Positions 1 through 39,292 of a stretch of 64,000 nt of DNA are shown here, piece by piece. Origin of the DNA: Sulfitobacter sp. JL08 (GTDB lineage: Bacteria; Pseudomonadota; Alphaproteobacteria; Rhodobacterales; Rhodobacteraceae). The position numbers and the translations under genes were made by a program. The notes beneath the pieces were generated by a model. It worked only from the letters and a program-made list of their open reading frames with translations. It had not been told where the DNA came from and did not search any database. The stretch spans positions 2,604,001 to 2,668,000 of the forward strand of contig NZ_CP025815.1 in NCBI RefSeq assembly GCF_003352045.1, given 5' to 3'. Each line of letters starts with the position of its first letter. Within the stretch, counting starts at the first letter, position 1.

Positions 1-208
1 TCACCGCCAGAACCAGCCAGAACGTGTGCCCGGTCTGATAAGTGATCCACGCAATCGCCCAGCCGGCCAGGACATAAAACCCCGCAAACGCCAACCCGTA
101 AAGCGGGGCGCGGCGGATATCCTGCCATCCACGCGCCAAAGCTTCGCGCAGCATCGCGCCGTTGACAGGGGCCAGTGGCGGAACGCCAAGCTCAGGTGTC
201 TCTGCCAT
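1..208 (-). CDS. DUF2189 family membrane protein, N-terminal part
   Basis: The gene runs off the left edge; 69 codons are visible from an ATG at 208, preceded by GGGAGG at a good distance. The translation begins [14 protein letters not shown] and contains a short soluble segment ([19 protein letters not shown], about residues 20-38) followed by a hydrophobic stretch (about 39-56) and the start of a second one. This soluble-then-membrane layout matches DUF2189 inner-membrane proteins, whose function is unknown. It lies downstream of the amidase on the same strand with a gap of about 107 bases. The family call rests on a short fragment, so it is likely rather than certain. Confidence 0.65.
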
Positions 209-21217: not shown

Positions 21218-21362
21218 GTCGATATCTCCTGTTTCGGACAGGTCAGAAGATAGGCCCGAACCGGACAGGAACAAACTGCCGTAATAACACCGGGAATGTG
21301 CGCGTTTGCACACAGTAATGTCAGATGATCTTCCTTTTTCGAAAAATGCACAGACCAGCAGC

Positions 21363-32846: not shown

Positions 32847-34226
32847 CTATTTCGTTATGATCTCTGGCCCCATCATCAGTGTCGGCAACCATGTGCTCAG
32901 GATCGGGATATAGGTCACCATGATCAGGAACACGAACAGCACCGCCGTAAACGGAAGCGCCGCGCGCACCACCGCCATCATCGGCATGTTGGCCACACCT
33001 GACGTCACGAACAGGTTCAGACCCACAGGTGGCGTAATCATCCCAATCTCCATGTTCACCACCATGATGATGCCCAGATGGATCGGATCAATGCCCAGTT
33101 CGATGGCAATCGGGAACACGAGTGGCGCCACGATCACCAGCAGGCCGGACGGTTCCATGAACTGCCCGCCGATCAGCAGGATCACGTTCACGATGATCAG
33201 AAACACGATCGGACCGAACCCGGCCTCAAGCATGGCCCCGGCGATCTGTTGCGGGATCTGTTCATCCGTCAGCACGTGTTTCAGGATCAGCGCATTGGCG
33301 ATGATGAACATCAGGGTCACGGTCAGTTTGCCCGCCTCGAACAGGGTGTCCCGTGTGTCGCGATGGAAAAACACCGTGATCAGCGACAGCGGCTTTTTCA
33401 GGAACGGGATGTTCTGCGCATCATCGCCTGCCACATGCAACGGCCCCATATCGCGATAGACAAAGCTGGCGATAAAGAACGCGTAAACGGCAGCCACGGC
33501 GGCAGCTTCGGTCGGGGTGAAAATCCCGCCATAAATGCCCCCCAGAATGATCACGATCAGGAACAGGCCCCATCCCGCGTCACGGCCGCTGGCAAACACT
33601 TCGCCCCAGCCATGCCATTCGCCCTTGGGCAAATCGCGGATCTTGGCAATTGCATAGATCGTGACCATCAGCATCGTACCGGCCATCAGGCCCGGAATGA
33701 CCCCCGCCAGAAACATCCGCCCGACAGACACATCCGTGGCCGAGGCATAGACCACCATCACGATAGACGGCGGGATCAGAATGCCCAGCGTACCGGCATT
33801 GGCGATGACACCTGCGGCAAAATCCTTGGTATAGCCAACCTGCCGCATCCCCGCGATCACGATCGATCCGATGGCCACAACCGTGGCCGGTGACGATCCG
33901 CTGAGCGCGGCAAACAGCATACAGGCAAAGACGCCCGCGATGGCCAGCCCGCCGGGCAAGTGCCCGACCAGCGCGATGGAAAACCGGATGATCCTTTTGG
34001 CCACACCGCCCGTCGACATGAACGTCGAGGCCAGAATGAAAAACGGGATCGCCAGCAGGGTGTAGTGCCCCGCCATCGCCTGAAACAACGTCTGCGCAAT
34101 CGATCCAAGCGAGGTATCGCTGAGAACCAGCAGGAAGATGATCGAAGATGTTCCCAGCGAAACGGCGATGGGCACACCGATCAGCATCAGGCCGATCACC
34201 ATGGCAAAAAGTATTACGACTTCCAT
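32847..34226 (-). CDS. dctM: TRAP transporter large permease DctM
   Basis: 459-residue inner-membrane protein with about 12 hydrophobic helices and the DctM hallmarks (GVPIAVSLGTSS, LAIPFFILASTFMSTGG, NAGTLGILIPPSIVMVVYA, PPVGLNLFVTSGV). It couples substrate entry to the sodium or proton gradient. It contains a longer hydrophilic loop around residues 270-305 than minimal DctM proteins. Four bases separate it from dctQ, so the pair is one operon. Confidence 0.95.
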   Translation of the reverse strand: MEVVILFAMVIGLMLIGVPIAVSLGTSSIIFLLVLSDTSLGSIAQTLFQAMAGHYTLLAIPFFILASTFMSTGGVAKRIIRFSIALVGHLPGGLAIAGVFACMLFAALSGSSPATVVAIGSIVIAGMRQVGYTKDFAAGVIANAGTLGILIPPSIVMVVYASATDVSVGRMFLAGVIPGLMAGTMLMVTIYAIAKIRDLPKGEWHGWGEVFASGRDAGWGLFLIVIILGGIYGGIFTPTEAAAVAAVYAFFIASFVYRDMGPLHVAGDDAQNIPFLKKPLSLITVFFHRDTRDTLFEAGKLTVTLMFIIANALILKHVLTDEQIPQQIAGAMLEAGFGPIVFLIIVNVILLIGGQFMEPSGLLVIVAPLVFPIAIELGIDPIHLGIIMVVNMEIGMITPPVGLNLFVTSGVANMPMMAVVRAALPFTAVLFVFLIMVTYIPILSTWLPTLMMGPEIITK

Positions 34227-34230
34227 GTGA

Positions 34231-34911
34231 TCAATCCCCTGCGTTCATATGTTTGACGTCTTCAACGGCGTCTTCGGCCTCGTGGCTGACGATCAGGCTG
34301 CCCGCGTCGCCGCGCCACAGGCGCAACGTGGCCTGTACAAAGCGAAACAGCAGCAGGCCCATGCCGAAGGGCAGGATTGCATAGGGAATGAAGCGTGGAA
34401 TTTTTTCGTAGGCTTCGCCTTCGTTCATGATCGGTTCGATCCAGCGCAGCCAGTCCGGCATCGGAATATCGACAACCTCGTACCATGCCTGATCGCGGCT
34501 GTTTTCAAACCCTGTCGGGAACCAGCGCCCCGATGTGGCATCCAGACCGGCGAACGGCGCCCAGTAATCCCACGCCCCCTTGAACACCAGAAACGCATAG
34601 CTCAGGCAGACCACCGCAGCGGTCAGGGCCAGAACGCGGCGCACGGGCGGCGAAAACAGATTGATCAGGGCATCAACGCCCAGATGGGCCGTCACCTTGA
34701 CCGCATAGCTTGCGCCGAACAGAACCAGCCACGCGAACAGAAATGTGACCGCTTCCAGCCCCCAGATCAGCCCGGTGTTGAACCCGTAACGCAGCACAAC
34801 GTTGATAAAGGTAAGTATCGTCATCAGACCGAGCAGAACCGCGATAACAGTTTCTTCGATCTCGTTCACGATCCGGCCAAGGCCGGTTTTCGCATGATAG
34901 GAATGTGACAT
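34231..34911 (-). CDS. dctQ: TRAP transporter small permease DctQ
   Basis: 226 residues with four membrane helices (starting ETVIAVLLGLMTILTFINVVLRYGF), the DctQ pattern. A large insert between helices 3 and 4 (about residues 115-170) makes it longer than the usual 160-180 residues; such inserts are common in roseobacter dicarboxylate systems. The ATG at 34911 (MSHSYHAKTG), preceded by GGGGA, is chosen over one 13 codons upstream. Confidence 0.92.
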   Translation of the reverse strand: MSHSYHAKTGLGRIVNEIEETVIAVLLGLMTILTFINVVLRYGFNTGLIWGLEAVTFLFAWLVLFGASYAVKVTAHLGVDALINLFSPPVRRVLALTAAVVCLSYAFLVFKGAWDYWAPFAGLDATSGRWFPTGFENSRDQAWYEVVDIPMPDWLRWIEPIMNEGEAYEKIPRFIPYAILPFGMGLLLFRFVQATLRLWRGDAGSLIVSHEAEDAVEDVKHMNAGD

Positions 34912-34977
34912 GTGCGTGTCCCCGGCGCATGATTTCCCCGGCCGGGACACTCCGGCCGGGGATTGGTCTTGACTGCC

Positions 34978-35979
34978 CTAGTGGGTCATATTGATTTTTT
35001 GGGCCGCGTCGATGTTTTCCTGGCCGACATCGCCTTTGAACTCTTCCCAGACGGGTTTCATGGCGGCAACCCATTCTTCGCGGGCCGCACCATCCAACGT
35101 ACGCACCACACCGCCGGCATCGATGATGGCCTGCTTGGCCGCTTCGTTGACGGCCGTGGATTCAGCGTTACGCGCGGCGGTCACTTCGGTCACGATTGTC
35201 GCCAGTTGATCGCGCACATCGCCATCCAGTGAATCCCACCAGTCGGTCGATGTCACCAGCATATAGTCGATGATACCGTGGTTGGTTTCGGTGATGCCAT
35301 CCTGCACTTCAAAGAACTTCTGGCCGTAAATGTTGGACCATGTGTTTTCCTGTCCGTCGACAACGCCGGTTTGCAGCGCGCCATAGACTTCGGAAAACGC
35401 CATCGGCTGGGGCGATCCACCCAAAGCCGCCATTTGCGCCTTCAGAACATCCGAATTCTGCACACGGAATTTCAGGCCATTGGCATCGGTCGGGCTGTTC
35501 AGCGGCACGTTGGCCGACATCTGCTTCATGCCGTTGTGCCAGAACGCAAGGCCCAGCAGACCACGGCGGGTCATGCTTTCCTTCATCGCCTGTCCGGTAT
35601 CGGAATTCTGGAAATCATCCACCGCCGCGATGTTCTTGAACATGAACGGCAGATCGAAGATGCGGAAAACCTTGGTGAACTGTTCGAACTTGGACAGCGA
35701 CGGGGCGGCCATCTGTACGTCGCCCTGCAACAGGGCCTCAAGCACCTGATCATCGTTGTAAAGTGTCGAGTTCGGGAACACTTCCATACAGGCTTTGCCG
35801 TTCATTTCGTCATTGACGCGCTGTTGCAGCAAAGAGGCGGCGATGCCTTTGGGGTGTTTGTCTGTATTGGTGACGTGGCTGAACTTGATAACGATCTCGC
35901 CTTCGTCACAGGCAGCGGAAGCCGCATTTGCAGTCACTGTCAGAGCCAGCGCCGTTGCGGCGGCGGTTACAAATTTCAT
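34978..35979 (-). CDS. dctP: TRAP transporter substrate-binding protein DctP
   Basis: 333-residue periplasmic binding protein with a signal peptide (MKFVTAAATALALTVTANAASA). The mature protein starts ACDEGEIVIKFSHVTN. The specificity arginine lies in NGLKFRVQNSDV, as in C4-dicarboxylate-binding DctP proteins, and the QENTWSNIYGQKFFEVQ motif is typical of them. First gene of the dctPQM operon. Its upstream region holds inverted repeats that match DctD-type sites. Confidence 0.94.
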   Translation of the reverse strand: MKFVTAAATALALTVTANAASAACDEGEIVIKFSHVTNTDKHPKGIAASLLQQRVNDEMNGKACMEVFPNSTLYNDDQVLEALLQGDVQMAAPSLSKFEQFTKVFRIFDLPFMFKNIAAVDDFQNSDTGQAMKESMTRRGLLGLAFWHNGMKQMSANVPLNSPTDANGLKFRVQNSDVLKAQMAALGGSPQPMAFSEVYGALQTGVVDGQENTWSNIYGQKFFEVQDGITETNHGIIDYMLVTSTDWWDSLDGDVRDQLATIVTEVTAARNAESTAVNEAAKQAIIDAGGVVRTLDGAAREEWVAAMKPVWEEFKGDVGQENIDAAQKINMTH

Positions 35980-36146
35980 GGTGGGTCTCCTCCCCGGTTG
36001 TGTGTCTGGCAGCGCCAGACGGCATAATCAGCTTTACCCGTCAAAGAACGGGTTGGCTGTCACAACCAAACCGCAAGTCGCCCTTTCGCTCAAGCTTTTG
36101 TGACCACCGGAACTACAACTTGACTTATTACATTTATAACAGCGCC

Positions 36147-36164
36147 TTAAGCAATATTGCTCAA
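36147..36164. promoter_or_regulatory. Palindrome upstream of dctP
   Basis: TTAAGCAATATTGCTCAA is an 18-bp near-perfect palindrome (one mismatch pair) about 170 bases before the dctP start, between the DctD-type repeats and the gene. It may be an operator for another regulator. The factor is unknown. Confidence 0.45.
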
Positions 36165-36191: not shown

Positions 36192-36242
36192 TGTGCGAAA
36201 TTCCGCACAAGGTTCGGTTTCAGCTGTGCGGTTTTTCGCACA
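36192..36242. promoter_or_regulatory. Two DctD-type inverted repeats upstream of dctP
   Basis: TGTGCGAAATTCCGCACA (36192-36209) and TGTGCGGTTTTTCGCACA (36225-36242) are 18-bp inverted repeats sharing TGTGCG-N6-CGCACA, with centres 33 bases apart, about three helical turns. Paired repeats of this kind are upstream activator sites of DctD in rhizobia. They lie 210-265 bases before dctP and end 2 bases from the dctD stop. Confidence 0.75.
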
Positions 36243-36244
36243 GA

Positions 36245-37483
36245 TCAGAGCCTGAAATCCTCGGCCCGAATCCCGTAGCGGGCCAGTTTGTCGTAAAAGG
36301 TTTTGCGCGGCAGGTGCAGGTCTTTTGCGGCCGCGCTGGCCTGCCCCTTGGCGCGTTGCAATGCAGCCGCCAGCAATGATCTTTCGACCTGCGCCAGTTG
36401 ATCGTTCAGCCCCAGTGACGCATCCGGCTGCGTCACACCGCCTGCCTCCAGCCCCAGCGCAAATCGCATCGCAACCGACATCAGCGCACGGGCATTTCCC
36501 GGCCAGTCCTGCGCCATCAGCCCGGCCAGAACATTGGGGGTGATTTCCGGCGCGCTCAGACCGGCCTGCTCGCTTGCCAGTGCAACATAGTGGCGAAACA
36601 GCACGGGAATATCCTCGGGGCGTTCGGCCAAAGACGGAATGCGCACCGGCATGACCTGAAGGCGATAGTAAAGGTCGGAGTTCAGCGCACCTTTTTCGGT
36701 CGCATGACCAAGATCGGCAGTGCTGCCACAGATCAGGCGCGCGTCCGCGCCCGTCTCCAGTGCTTCGATCAGGGCAAACTGGCTGTCAGCGGGCATTGCC
36801 GCAATCTCATCGATGAACAGGCTGCCGGCCTGCGCCATCTCAAGCGCGGCAATCAACGCATGCGGTTCAAGCCCGGCCCCTGCCCGTTTCACGAACGGCC
36901 CCTTGGACACGGGTGAACACAGGTGGATCACTTCGGCCACCTTGGAAATGCCGGTGCCCGGATCGCCCAGCACCAGCACTTCGGTGTGCGCGCGGGCCAC
37001 CTGGCGGACATTTTCGCGCAAGGTTTCGGCCTTTTGCGATGTTCCAAACAACATCCGCGCAGCAGCATCCCCGCGTTCCAGCTGCGCACGCAAACGGCGG
37101 TTTTCCAGCACAAGATGGCGGGTTTTGATCGCCCGTTCCAGCACGGCCACCAGATCGGCAGGCGCACACGGCTTTTCCAGAAAATCGAACGCGCCCTGCG
37201 CCATGGCCTTGACGGCCATCGGAATGTCGCCTTCGCCGGTCAGCAGAACAACCGGCAGATCGGGGTCCTGTTGCAGCGCATAATCCAACAGATAAAAACC
37301 GTCGCGTCCCGGCATCCGGATATCGGACAGGATGACCCCTTCAAATGTCGTCGATATATGATCCTTGGCCGCAATAAACGATCCAACAGCGCGCGGCTCC
37401 AATCCGGCCAGGGCCAGCGATTGCGCCAGTGCCTCGCGTACGGCAGCGTCATCTTCGACAATCAGAACAGGGGTTGCGCTCAT
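36245..37483 (-). CDS. dctD: Response regulator DctD lacking the sigma-54 contact loop
   Basis: 412 residues: receiver domain with phospho-acceptor D54 and K104, an AAA+ domain (about 142-310) and a C-terminal Fis-type helix-turn-helix (about 372-405). In the AAA+ part Walker A reads GDPGTGIS (173-180), with Ile where the ATP-binding Lys should be, and the region that normally holds ESELFGHExGAFTGA is absent: the chain goes from GPFVKR through GLEPHALIAALEMA straight to Walker B SLFIDE. Without GAFTGA it should not be able to open sigma-54 complexes. Rhodobacter capsulatus NtrC is a known activator that also lacks the motif and works with sigma-70. The stop is 3 bases from a DctD-type repeat. 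Confidence 0.9.
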   Translation of the reverse strand: MSATPVLIVEDDAAVREALAQSLALAGLEPRAVGSFIAAKDHISTTFEGVILSDIRMPGRDGFYLLDYALQQDPDLPVVLLTGEGDIPMAVKAMAQGAFDFLEKPCAPADLVAVLERAIKTRHLVLENRRLRAQLERGDAAARMLFGTSQKAETLRENVRQVARAHTEVLVLGDPGTGISKVAEVIHLCSPVSKGPFVKRAGAGLEPHALIAALEMAQAGSLFIDEIAAMPADSQFALIEALETGADARLICGSTADLGHATEKGALNSDLYYRLQVMPVRIPSLAERPEDIPVLFRHYVALASEQAGLSAPEITPNVLAGLMAQDWPGNARALMSVAMRFALGLEAGGVTQPDASLGLNDQLAQVERSLLAAALQRAKGQASAAAKDLHLPRKTFYDKLARYGIRAEDFRL

Positions 37484-39231
37484 GCGGCTTTTTCGCCTTC
37501 CCAGCGATCCAGTTCAACGGTAAAAACCGCGCCGCCCTCTGGCCGGTTGGCGCCGCGAATGTTACCGTCAAAGCTTTGCACCAAACCATAAGAGATCGAC
37601 AGGCCCAGCCCCATGCCTTCGGCGGCGCCCACCTCTTTTGTGGAATAGAACGGATCGAAAATCTTTTCCGGCGCGCTGATGCCGGGGCCGGTATCGGCCA
37701 CATCCACGCTGATCCGGTCGCCGGTGTTCAGGGTGATCGTCAGGGCGCGATCCTGCGTCGCCTCCATTGCGTCTGCCGCGTTGGTGATCAGGTTCACCAT
37801 CACCTGCGCCAGACGCACTTCGCCTGCATGCACCCAGACAGGTCCGGATGGGGGCACCCATTGCACCTGCACCGCGTCATCACGCAGCCGCACCGCAGTC
37901 AATTCCAGCGCAGTGTCAATCACGGCAACGATATCCACCCGCGTCAGTTCGCGGGTTTCCTGCCGCGCAAAAGCGCGCAGGTTCTTGATGATGCGCGCCA
38001 TGCGTTCCGCCAGATCGGAAATACGGCCCATATTGGCCGCCGCGACCTGCGTTTCGCCGCGCGCCAGAAACTGCGCGCCGTTTTCGGCAAATGACCGGAT
38101 CGCCATCAGCGGCTGGTTCAGTTCGTGGCTTAACCCCGCCGACATCTGCCCCAGGGCCGACAGTTTGCCCGCCTGCACCAGATCGGCCTGTGCCCGTTGC
38201 AGGGCTGCTTCGGCCTGCCGCCGTTCGGAGACTTCGCGCCGCAGGCTGACGTTGGCATCCTGCAAGGCCGCCGTGCGTTTGGCCACCCGGCTTTCCAGCA
38301 CCGCATTGGCCTGCGCGAGGGTACGGCGCCGTTCGGTTGCCAGAAACAGCATCGCTCCAAAAGCCAGACACAGCGCCGCCACCGCCGAAGCCTGCAAACC
38401 TGCCAGACGGCGCGCGGGGGCCACATCAACCAACACCTCACCCGTCATGCCGATCACCGGCAACTGTTTCACCAGATGCAGCGCCCGCGCCGGCAGATAA
38501 GGCCCCCACCCCAATTGCCACACCTCGTGCGGCCCGGTGAAGCTGGAAGAAAACGGCGGCGAACGACCAGCGGCAGGCACCAGTCCCGCTTCGCCCTTGG
38601 GACGTGTCCAGAACAGCAGTTCGGACCGGTTGGAAATAAACACCTCGCCGCTGCGATCCGTGAAGAATACAGCCGGGTTGGAGCCGCGCCAGTCATCTTC
38701 TAGACGGTCCACATCCACCGCCACCATCAGCACGCCAATCACCCCGCCGCCCACGGCAAAAGACGGCGCTCCGAACACAAATGTCCGCTGGTCAAAGGGG
38801 GGCTTGACCCCGTGATCAATGCCCATCGCCCCGTGCATGGCGCGCGCGAATGCGGCGTTCTGCGAGACGTCCTGCAATGTTGCGTCATGCGCTGAGGCGA
38901 CAACCTGTCCGGCGGGTGATACGAACAGAATATCCAGTGCCGCCGTCTTGTCTGCCGCTGCCAGCAACATCGCCTTGGCCGCAGCTGTTTCGCGCCCGAT
39001 TGCAAGCGCCTGCAACACCGGATGATCCGCCAGTAGAACGGCAATCTCCTGAAATCCCTGCAACTGTCCGGTTAACCGGTCGCTGGCCAGATCCAGATCG
39101 GCCTGCCCGCGCTGCGCCAACTGATCCAGCGCCTGCAAATACCCATAGCGCCATACGGCCGCCGACACCGCCGCAACGGTGATCAAAAACCCCACAACAA
39201 TCAGGGCGCGCTGGTTCCATAATCGCGTCAT
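37480..39231 (-). CDS. dctB: C4-dicarboxylate sensor histidine kinase DctB
   Basis: 583 residues: membrane helix (about 7-30), a periplasmic double-Cache sensor (about 35-270), a second helix (about 275-297), a coiled coil, then the HisKA H-box (GLSHELNQPLMAIRSFAEN) and an HATPase domain (NLITNAADAM, DTGPGI, GLGLSISYG). This is the DctB layout. The ATG at 39231 is used; a TTG six codons upstream is possible. Overlaps dctD by four bases (ATGA), so the pair is coupled. Confidence 0.94.
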   Translation of the reverse strand: MTRLWNQRALIVVGFLITVAAVSAAVWRYGYLQALDQLAQRGQADLDLASDRLTGQLQGFQEIAVLLADHPVLQALAIGRETAAAKAMLLAAADKTAALDILFVSPAGQVVASAHDATLQDVSQNAAFARAMHGAMGIDHGVKPPFDQRTFVFGAPSFAVGGGVIGVLMVAVDVDRLEDDWRGSNPAVFFTDRSGEVFISNRSELLFWTRPKGEAGLVPAAGRSPPFSSSFTGPHEVWQLGWGPYLPARALHLVKQLPVIGMTGEVLVDVAPARRLAGLQASAVAALCLAFGAMLFLATERRRTLAQANAVLESRVAKRTAALQDANVSLRREVSERRQAEAALQRAQADLVQAGKLSALGQMSAGLSHELNQPLMAIRSFAENGAQFLARGETQVAAANMGRISDLAERMARIIKNLRAFARQETRELTRVDIVAVIDTALELTAVRLRDDAVQVQWVPPSGPVWVHAGEVRLAQVMVNLITNAADAMEATQDRALTITLNTGDRISVDVADTGPGISAPEKIFDPFYSTKEVGAAEGMGLGLSISYGLVQSFDGNIRGANRPEGGAVFTVELDRWEGEKAA

Positions 39232-39292
39232 CTTGCAAGACCCTAGCAAACCCGGACTTGCATTGACCAGATCGCACCGCTTTGATGCCGTT

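Follow-up and report, generated by a model that had tools for sequence, protein, structure and literature searches.

Organisation of the dct locus and the lesions of DctD

The window, by which we mean the whole 64,000-nucleotide stretch of Sulfitobacter sp. JL08 analysed here, carries the genes of a C4-dicarboxylate TRAP transporter together with their putative regulators, in the order dctB-dctD-dctP-dctQ-dctM that is kept in most of 80 named loci; all coordinates given for this locus refer to the minus strand. The dctD gene (36245..37483), identified from its open reading frame and Pfam domains, encodes a response regulator of 412 aa with a degenerate AAA+ domain and a Fis-type HTH. It overlaps by 4 bp with dctB (37480..39249), a membrane sensor histidine kinase with dCache, HisKA and HATPase domains (open reading frame, Pfam and synteny). 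The transporter genes comprise dctP for the solute-binding protein (34978..35979; PF03480, 1.3e-102), dctQ for the small membrane subunit (34231..34950; start codon uncertain) and dctM for the large membrane subunit (32847..34226), the last two assigned from open reading frame and synteny. Linkage to dctB and to a C4-dicarboxylate transporter, a trait of the DctD of C4-dicarboxylate operons, is thus present. In Ruegeria pomeroyi, dctMPQ (SPO2626-2628) imports fumarate, succinate and malate (PMC10130141).

According to Pfam, DctD contains Response_reg, Sigma54_activat (in two pieces), AAA_lid and HTH_8 domains, which is the receiver, AAA+ and Fis HTH architecture of group I NtrC/DctD bEBPs. The first-pass annotation had described a protein with intact receiver, Walker B (LFIDE) and Fis HTH, in which Walker A reads GDPGTGIS and a segment of about 20 residues, from ESELFG to GAFTGA, is missing, and each of these points held. 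The domains are recognised, and SLFIDEI at residues 221-227 forms Walker B. The degenerate Walker A occupies residues 173-180 (36944..36967), with the lysine replaced by isoleucine, and the acidic residue that follows the lysine position is absent as well. Counted from the F of 'PF' to the last position ahead of Walker B, the stretch has 24 residues, vs 43 in the GAFTGA-bearing relative L144, so that 19 residues are missing from a shortened L1 region (residues 203-220; 36824..36877). In the FRxDLxxRL element the first arginine is also replaced (LNSDLYYRL). Structure prediction, which the first-pass annotation had proposed as a check, gave an AlphaFold model from 47 sequences with a mean pLDDT of 88; the AAA core is kept, mostly above 90, with a plain helix at residues 207-216 where the GAFTGA loop would be expected. 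Foldseek neighbours of DctD were NtrX, NtrC1, FleQ and VpsR, and the AAA core matched the AAA structures of NtrX, FleQ and PspF.

The same lesions recur throughout a clade of 193 distinct DctD orthologues from the family, whose named loci include members of Roseobacter, Sulfitobacter, Ruegeria, Roseovarius, Shimia, Phaeobacter and Leisingera. The Walker A lysine position (179) holds I in 121, T in 37, V in 25 and other residues in the rest, with K in 0/193; a GAFTGA-like string was found in none of the 193, the L1 stretch between 'PF' and Walker B always measures 24 residues, and the residues listed for the clade at the column of the first FRxDLxxRL arginine include no arginine. In the receiver, D11, D54 and K104 never vary, and T82 is kept in 191/193. 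The degenerate Walker A is not simply destroyed, as its glycines, K181 two positions further on (190/193) and E184 (191/193) are conserved, and the Walker B acidic pair is largely retained (D in 186 and E in 171 orthologues). Median dN/dS values (Nei-Gojobori, 13-15 independent pairs) were 0.043 for the receiver, 0.08 for the AAA domain and 0.065 for the HTH, placing the AAA domain under purifying selection. Since all 193 distinct orthologues share the lesions and dN/dS is low, dctD is not a recent pseudogene, and sequencing error and decay of a single gene are likewise ruled out.

Putative operators and predicted promoter upstream of dctP

Two TGTGCG-N6-CGCACA palindromes, 32-33 bp apart, lie between dctD and dctP and are regarded here as putative operators. 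Operator 1, TGTGCGAAAAACCGCACA (36225..36242), has perfect palindrome arms; operator 2, TGTGCGGAATTTCGCACA (36192..36209), lies 33 bp from it, and the genome has no second pair of this kind. With a threshold of at most 5 mismatches of 24, the pair was found within 700 bp after dctD in 166/192 loci, vs 0/192 for control stretches inside dctD. In five loci with genes between dctD and dctP (L093, L098, L112, L126 and L128) it stands directly upstream of dctP. In several Ruegeria loci (L077, L080, L081, L084, L087 and others) about 120 extra bases separate the dctD stop from operator 1, and the distance from operators to dctP is unchanged. A larger regulon was considered and rejected: single palindromes with 1 mismatch occur genome-wide near the control count (21 vs 15), and the 33-bp pair occurs at dctP only. 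Autoregulation of dctB through these palindromes was also discarded, the sole other match in the window with at most 1 mismatch being at 21297, far from dctB. The dctD-dctP intergenic region gave no match on plasmids.

Downstream of the operators lies an IHF-like site, TAAGGCGCTGTTA (36137..36149), recognised by conservation at its position and differing by 1 mismatch from the consensus YAANNNNYTGATW; about 55 bp before the -35, this consensus is present with at most 2 mismatches in 78% of loci, vs 7.5% in shuffles. The predicted -35 of the dctP promoter is TTGAGC (36088..36093), and the predicted -10, TTTGGT (36065..36070), follows after 17 bp, its last T being found in 84% of loci. A TTG occurs at operator 2 +110..121 in 147/166 loci, vs about 34 expected, and the consensus anchored on it is TTGAGC-N17-TTTnCT at about 116 bp from operator 2. 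By its conservation footprint, the region combines a pair of upstream sites with a predicted sigma-70-type promoter a fixed distance away. No strong consensus promoter emerged in the window itself, whose -35 and -10 do not reach the threshold of a simple sigma-70 scan; since TTGAGC and TTTGGT are weak by consensus, it is conservation that supports the promoter call. Measured from the predicted dctP start, the palindromes are about 142 and 175 bp upstream. The predicted -10 and dctP start are overlapped by a short hairpin with a T-rich tail after it (36053-36069), and 3 terminator-like sites occur in 400 bp, vs 0.5 expected.

The first-pass annotation had found no sigma-54 promoter upstream of dctP, and our search agrees: no TGGCAC-N5-TTGC sequence with at most 2 mismatches was present between dctP and dctD. 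Across the loci, the best sigma-54 match in the dctD-dctP region had a mean of 3.55 mismatches, vs 3.53 in shuffles, and a hidden sigma-54 site elsewhere in this region was rejected on this ground.

Distribution of rpoN and history of the clade

The assembly of the window is a single contig of 4.32 Mb, rated 99.99% complete. It contains no rpoN detectable with PF04552 or TIGR02395, searches that were positive in E. coli, B. subtilis and Caulobacter; the presence of rpoN had been named by the first-pass annotation as a point to check. A second DctD with GAFTGA acting at dctP, which that annotation had set out as evidence against its reading, was not encountered either: GAFTGA is absent from all seven NtrC-family proteins of the assembly (DctD, the DctD-like L002 and L003, NtrX (L004), NtrC (L005), L006 and L007), and an extended GAFTGA DNA pattern, which misses GSFTGA variants, had no match in the assembly. 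The Walker A lysine is kept in the six others and lost only in the DctD of the window. The DctD-like L003 (G000:C1:3526787-3528079) has an L1 of near-full length with GVFAHD in place of GAFTGA, its motif having decayed by substitution and not by deletion. L006 (G000:C1:3799572-3800858) is a response regulator adjoining a histidine kinase and a protein resembling a formate dehydrogenase cytochrome b subunit, and L007 (G000:C1:2820427-2821053) is a regulator of the sigma-54-activator type without a receiver domain, directly upstream of a solute-binding protein of spermidine/putrescine-like appearance.

In a survey of 298 genomes of the same family, one per genus, a clear rpoN (E < 1e-20) was found in 90 genomes and a close DctD orthologue in 127. 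The extended GAFTGA pattern matched in 44 genomes, 41 of them with rpoN (Fisher p ~1e-21); the 49 genomes with rpoN and no match perhaps carry GSFTGA or other variants. Among the 127 orthologue-bearing genomes, 26 have rpoN and 101 lack it, and among 33 named genomes with the orthologue 10 have it. Because 26 of these genomes keep rpoN, the lesions of DctD are not merely the result of rpoN loss genome by genome. The palindrome layout is the same in genomes with and without rpoN.

A quick tree search with SH-aLRT support placed the GAFTGA-bearing proteins of L144 and L154 outside a GAFTGA-less group (support 99). Within this group, L138, L139 and L140 keep the Walker A lysine, and nested inside (97) are two derived groups, namely the clade of the window (99), in which the lysine is lost, and another group with seven members (100; L141-L143, L145, L150, L155 and L156), in which a K or R remains at the P-loop but Walker B is not recognisable and GAFTGA is lacking. 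Three of these, L142, L143 and L145, carry a palindrome pair with 41-bp spacing on the side of dctB, adjoining dctP if that gene belongs to the locus. In L138, TTG already appears at operator 2 +116, with TTCTGT 17 bp after it. L144, from a genome with rpoN, combines GAFTGA and an intact Walker A with the same synteny, the same palindrome pair and a sigma-54-like sequence, TGGCATGGATTCTGCA, and is presumed to represent the ancestral pairing of a GAFTGA-bearing DctD with a sigma-54-like promoter. Rhizobial-type DctD and the proteins of L144, L259 and L260 share with the DctD of the window the domain order and similar paired GTGCG-N6-CGCAC-like sites, and L144 also shares the TRAP operon synteny; they differ in keeping both GAFTGA and Walker A, which are lacking in the clade of the window. 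L144 and L260 moreover carry a sigma-54-like site (TGGCATGGATTCTGCA and TGGCATGCATGTTGCT, respectively), whereas the locus of the window has none. These relatives suggest that GAFTGA was lost and the promoter passed to sigma-70 first, and that ATPase residues were lost later, twice; this order is provisional because one or two intermediates carry it.

Proposed mode of action of DctD

The DNA itself shows the protein lesions and their fixation in the clade, an assembly without rpoN, a cis arrangement kept across loci and no sigma-54 site. On this basis we consider it likely that DctD, under the control of DctB, activates sigma-70 RNA polymerase from a distance and independently of ATP, having been remodelled from an ATP-driven activator of the sigma-54 type. 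In this model, DctB would sense C4-dicarboxylates and phosphorylate Asp54 of DctD, as conserved residues and synteny suggest; DctD would bind the two palindromes 33 bp apart, and a bend at the IHF-like site would bring it to RNA polymerase at the weak TTGAGC-N17-TTTGGT promoter, thereby switching on dctPQM. The protein would not bind ATP, and its AAA+ fold would be kept as a platform for oligomerisation or contact and not as a motor. Because the loss is fixed in hundreds of related marine bacteria with a sigma-70-type promoter, we take DctD for a probably functional ATP-free activator rather than the product of a defective gene. Some observations weigh against this proposal. The Walker B acidic residues survive in most orthologues, although this would not be expected if nucleotide were wholly irrelevant; rpoN persists in a part of the orthologue-bearing genomes; and the -35 and -10 of the window fall below the consensus threshold.

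The first-pass annotation had suggested a DctD that works with sigma-70 in the manner of Rhodobacter capsulatus NtrC. By comparison, the sigma-70 part of this suggestion is well supported: the assembly has neither rpoN nor a second GAFTGA-bearing DctD, the sigma-70-type promoter is conserved, and sigma-54 matches do not exceed those in shuffles. The likeness is good but incomplete, since the Walker A lysine is gone. According to PMC10274813, R. capsulatus NtrC (Bowman and Kranz 1998, cited there and in PMC6925177) is devoid of GAFTGA, partners sigma-70 and depends on bound ATP though not on its hydrolysis; PMC6925177 also describes its action with sigma-70 (RpoD). By analogy it is the nearest precedent in mechanism: it is an NtrC-type response regulator from the same bacterial order with a deleted GAFTGA L1 loop, a housekeeping sigma factor as partner and a dependence on phosphorylation (both predicted for DctD). 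It differs from DctD, whose predicted target is dctPQM, in target and operator, and in its need for ATP binding, as the lysine is lost in every member of the DctD clade. An exact equivalence, in which DctD would be a sigma-70 activator that needs ATP bound through an altered P-loop (e.g., with K181) and Walker B, is consistent with the conserved P-loop glycines, K181, E184 and Walker B and with the confidently predicted AAA core and its structural matches. We nevertheless regard it as unlikely, given that the phosphate-contacting lysine is absent in all members and the next acidic residue in the protein of the window, and that the Walker A K178A allele of Caulobacter NtrC fails to support growth (PMC10274813).

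That DctD might instead repress was a second suggestion of the first-pass annotation, and it fits the locus poorly. In such a scheme the GAFTGA-less, unphosphorylated protein would hold dctP down until phosphorylation by DctB released it, as might be imagined for a regulator whose DNA-binding and receiver domains are intact and whose remodelling parts are gone; Caulobacter NtrC has been reported to repress some promoters (PMC10274813). The palindromes do not cover the promoter, however. They stand more than 100 bp upstream of the conserved -35 with the IHF-like site between, and this distal layout together with weak hexamers, as expected of an activated promoter, favours activation over repression; the same palindromes also accompany the GAFTGA-bearing DctD of L144. 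Mutants of R. pomeroyi SPO2630 grow about 97% less on fumarate and 82% less on succinate, as do transporter mutants (PMC10130141). SPO2630 has been named 'C4-dicarboxylate TRAP regulatory protein' (PMC10041152) and 'transport sensor protein' (PMC4809877), lies next to dctPQM, and judged by gene order is probably dctB, so the phenotype tests DctD only indirectly. With the reservation of polar effects, it indicates that dctPQM depends on the DctB-DctD pathway; this agrees with activation, and loss of the kinase would also block growth on C4 acids under a repressor relieved by phosphorylation. Taken together, repression by DctD appears improbable.

An ATP-free sigma-70 activator thus remains our preferred reading. 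A sigma-54 system on a plasmid outside the assembly, with DctD as its helper or a decaying relic, could be imagined from the single-contig assembly, from the several replicons that relatives often have and from the rpoN-bearing genomes with an orthologue, but is very unlikely in view of strong purifying selection in the clade, a layout identical with and without rpoN, the lack of a sigma-54 site and the near confinement of intact GAFTGA to genomes with rpoN.

GAFTGA-less regulators acting with sigma-70 are known as such. About 110 homologues with a defective GAFTGA have been listed, with HupR, TyrR and DhaR named (PMC3162934). HupR, TyrR, DhaR and VpsR resemble DctD as relatives of enhancer-binding proteins that have lost GAFTGA and act with sigma-70 (PMC3162934; PMC10274813), and VpsR is reported to need no ATP (PMC10274813); they serve other regulons and inputs, and none is a family-fixed DctD with such a promoter layout. 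Caulobacter NtrC, also from an alphaproteobacterium, shares the GAFTGA deletion and sigma-70 promoters with DctD, whereas its Walker A and B residues are required, its deletion is smaller and it has both repressing and activating targets (PMC10274813). The library searched contained no description of this DctD clade lacking GAFTGA and the Walker A lysine; because sigma-70 regulators without GAFTGA, R. capsulatus NtrC among them, are known, we view the clade as novel within a known class, the new element being a fixed, apparently ATPase-dead DctD with a seemingly co-adapted sigma-70 promoter.

For the family as a whole, we judge the chances about even that an enhancer-type regulator works on sigma-70 polymerase over a distance of more than 100 bp without binding ATP at all, and that regulator and promoter switched together from a sigma-54 state, in steps still legible in living relatives, with GAFTGA lost and the sigma-70 promoter gained first and ATPase residues lost later, twice, through different lesions. 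The question of how NtrC-type proteins activate sigma-70 without a motor is a live one, as the ATP needs of R. capsulatus NtrC, Caulobacter NtrC and VpsR differ (PMC10274813), and the clade offers hundreds of natural examples with a dead-looking motor and one compact, conserved target promoter. Because it has close relatives with a motor and a sigma-54-like site, the switch of promoter and activator is directly testable. Furthermore, with about 70% of the sampled genomes lacking rpoN, 'sigma-54 dependent' annotations are often wrong in this family.
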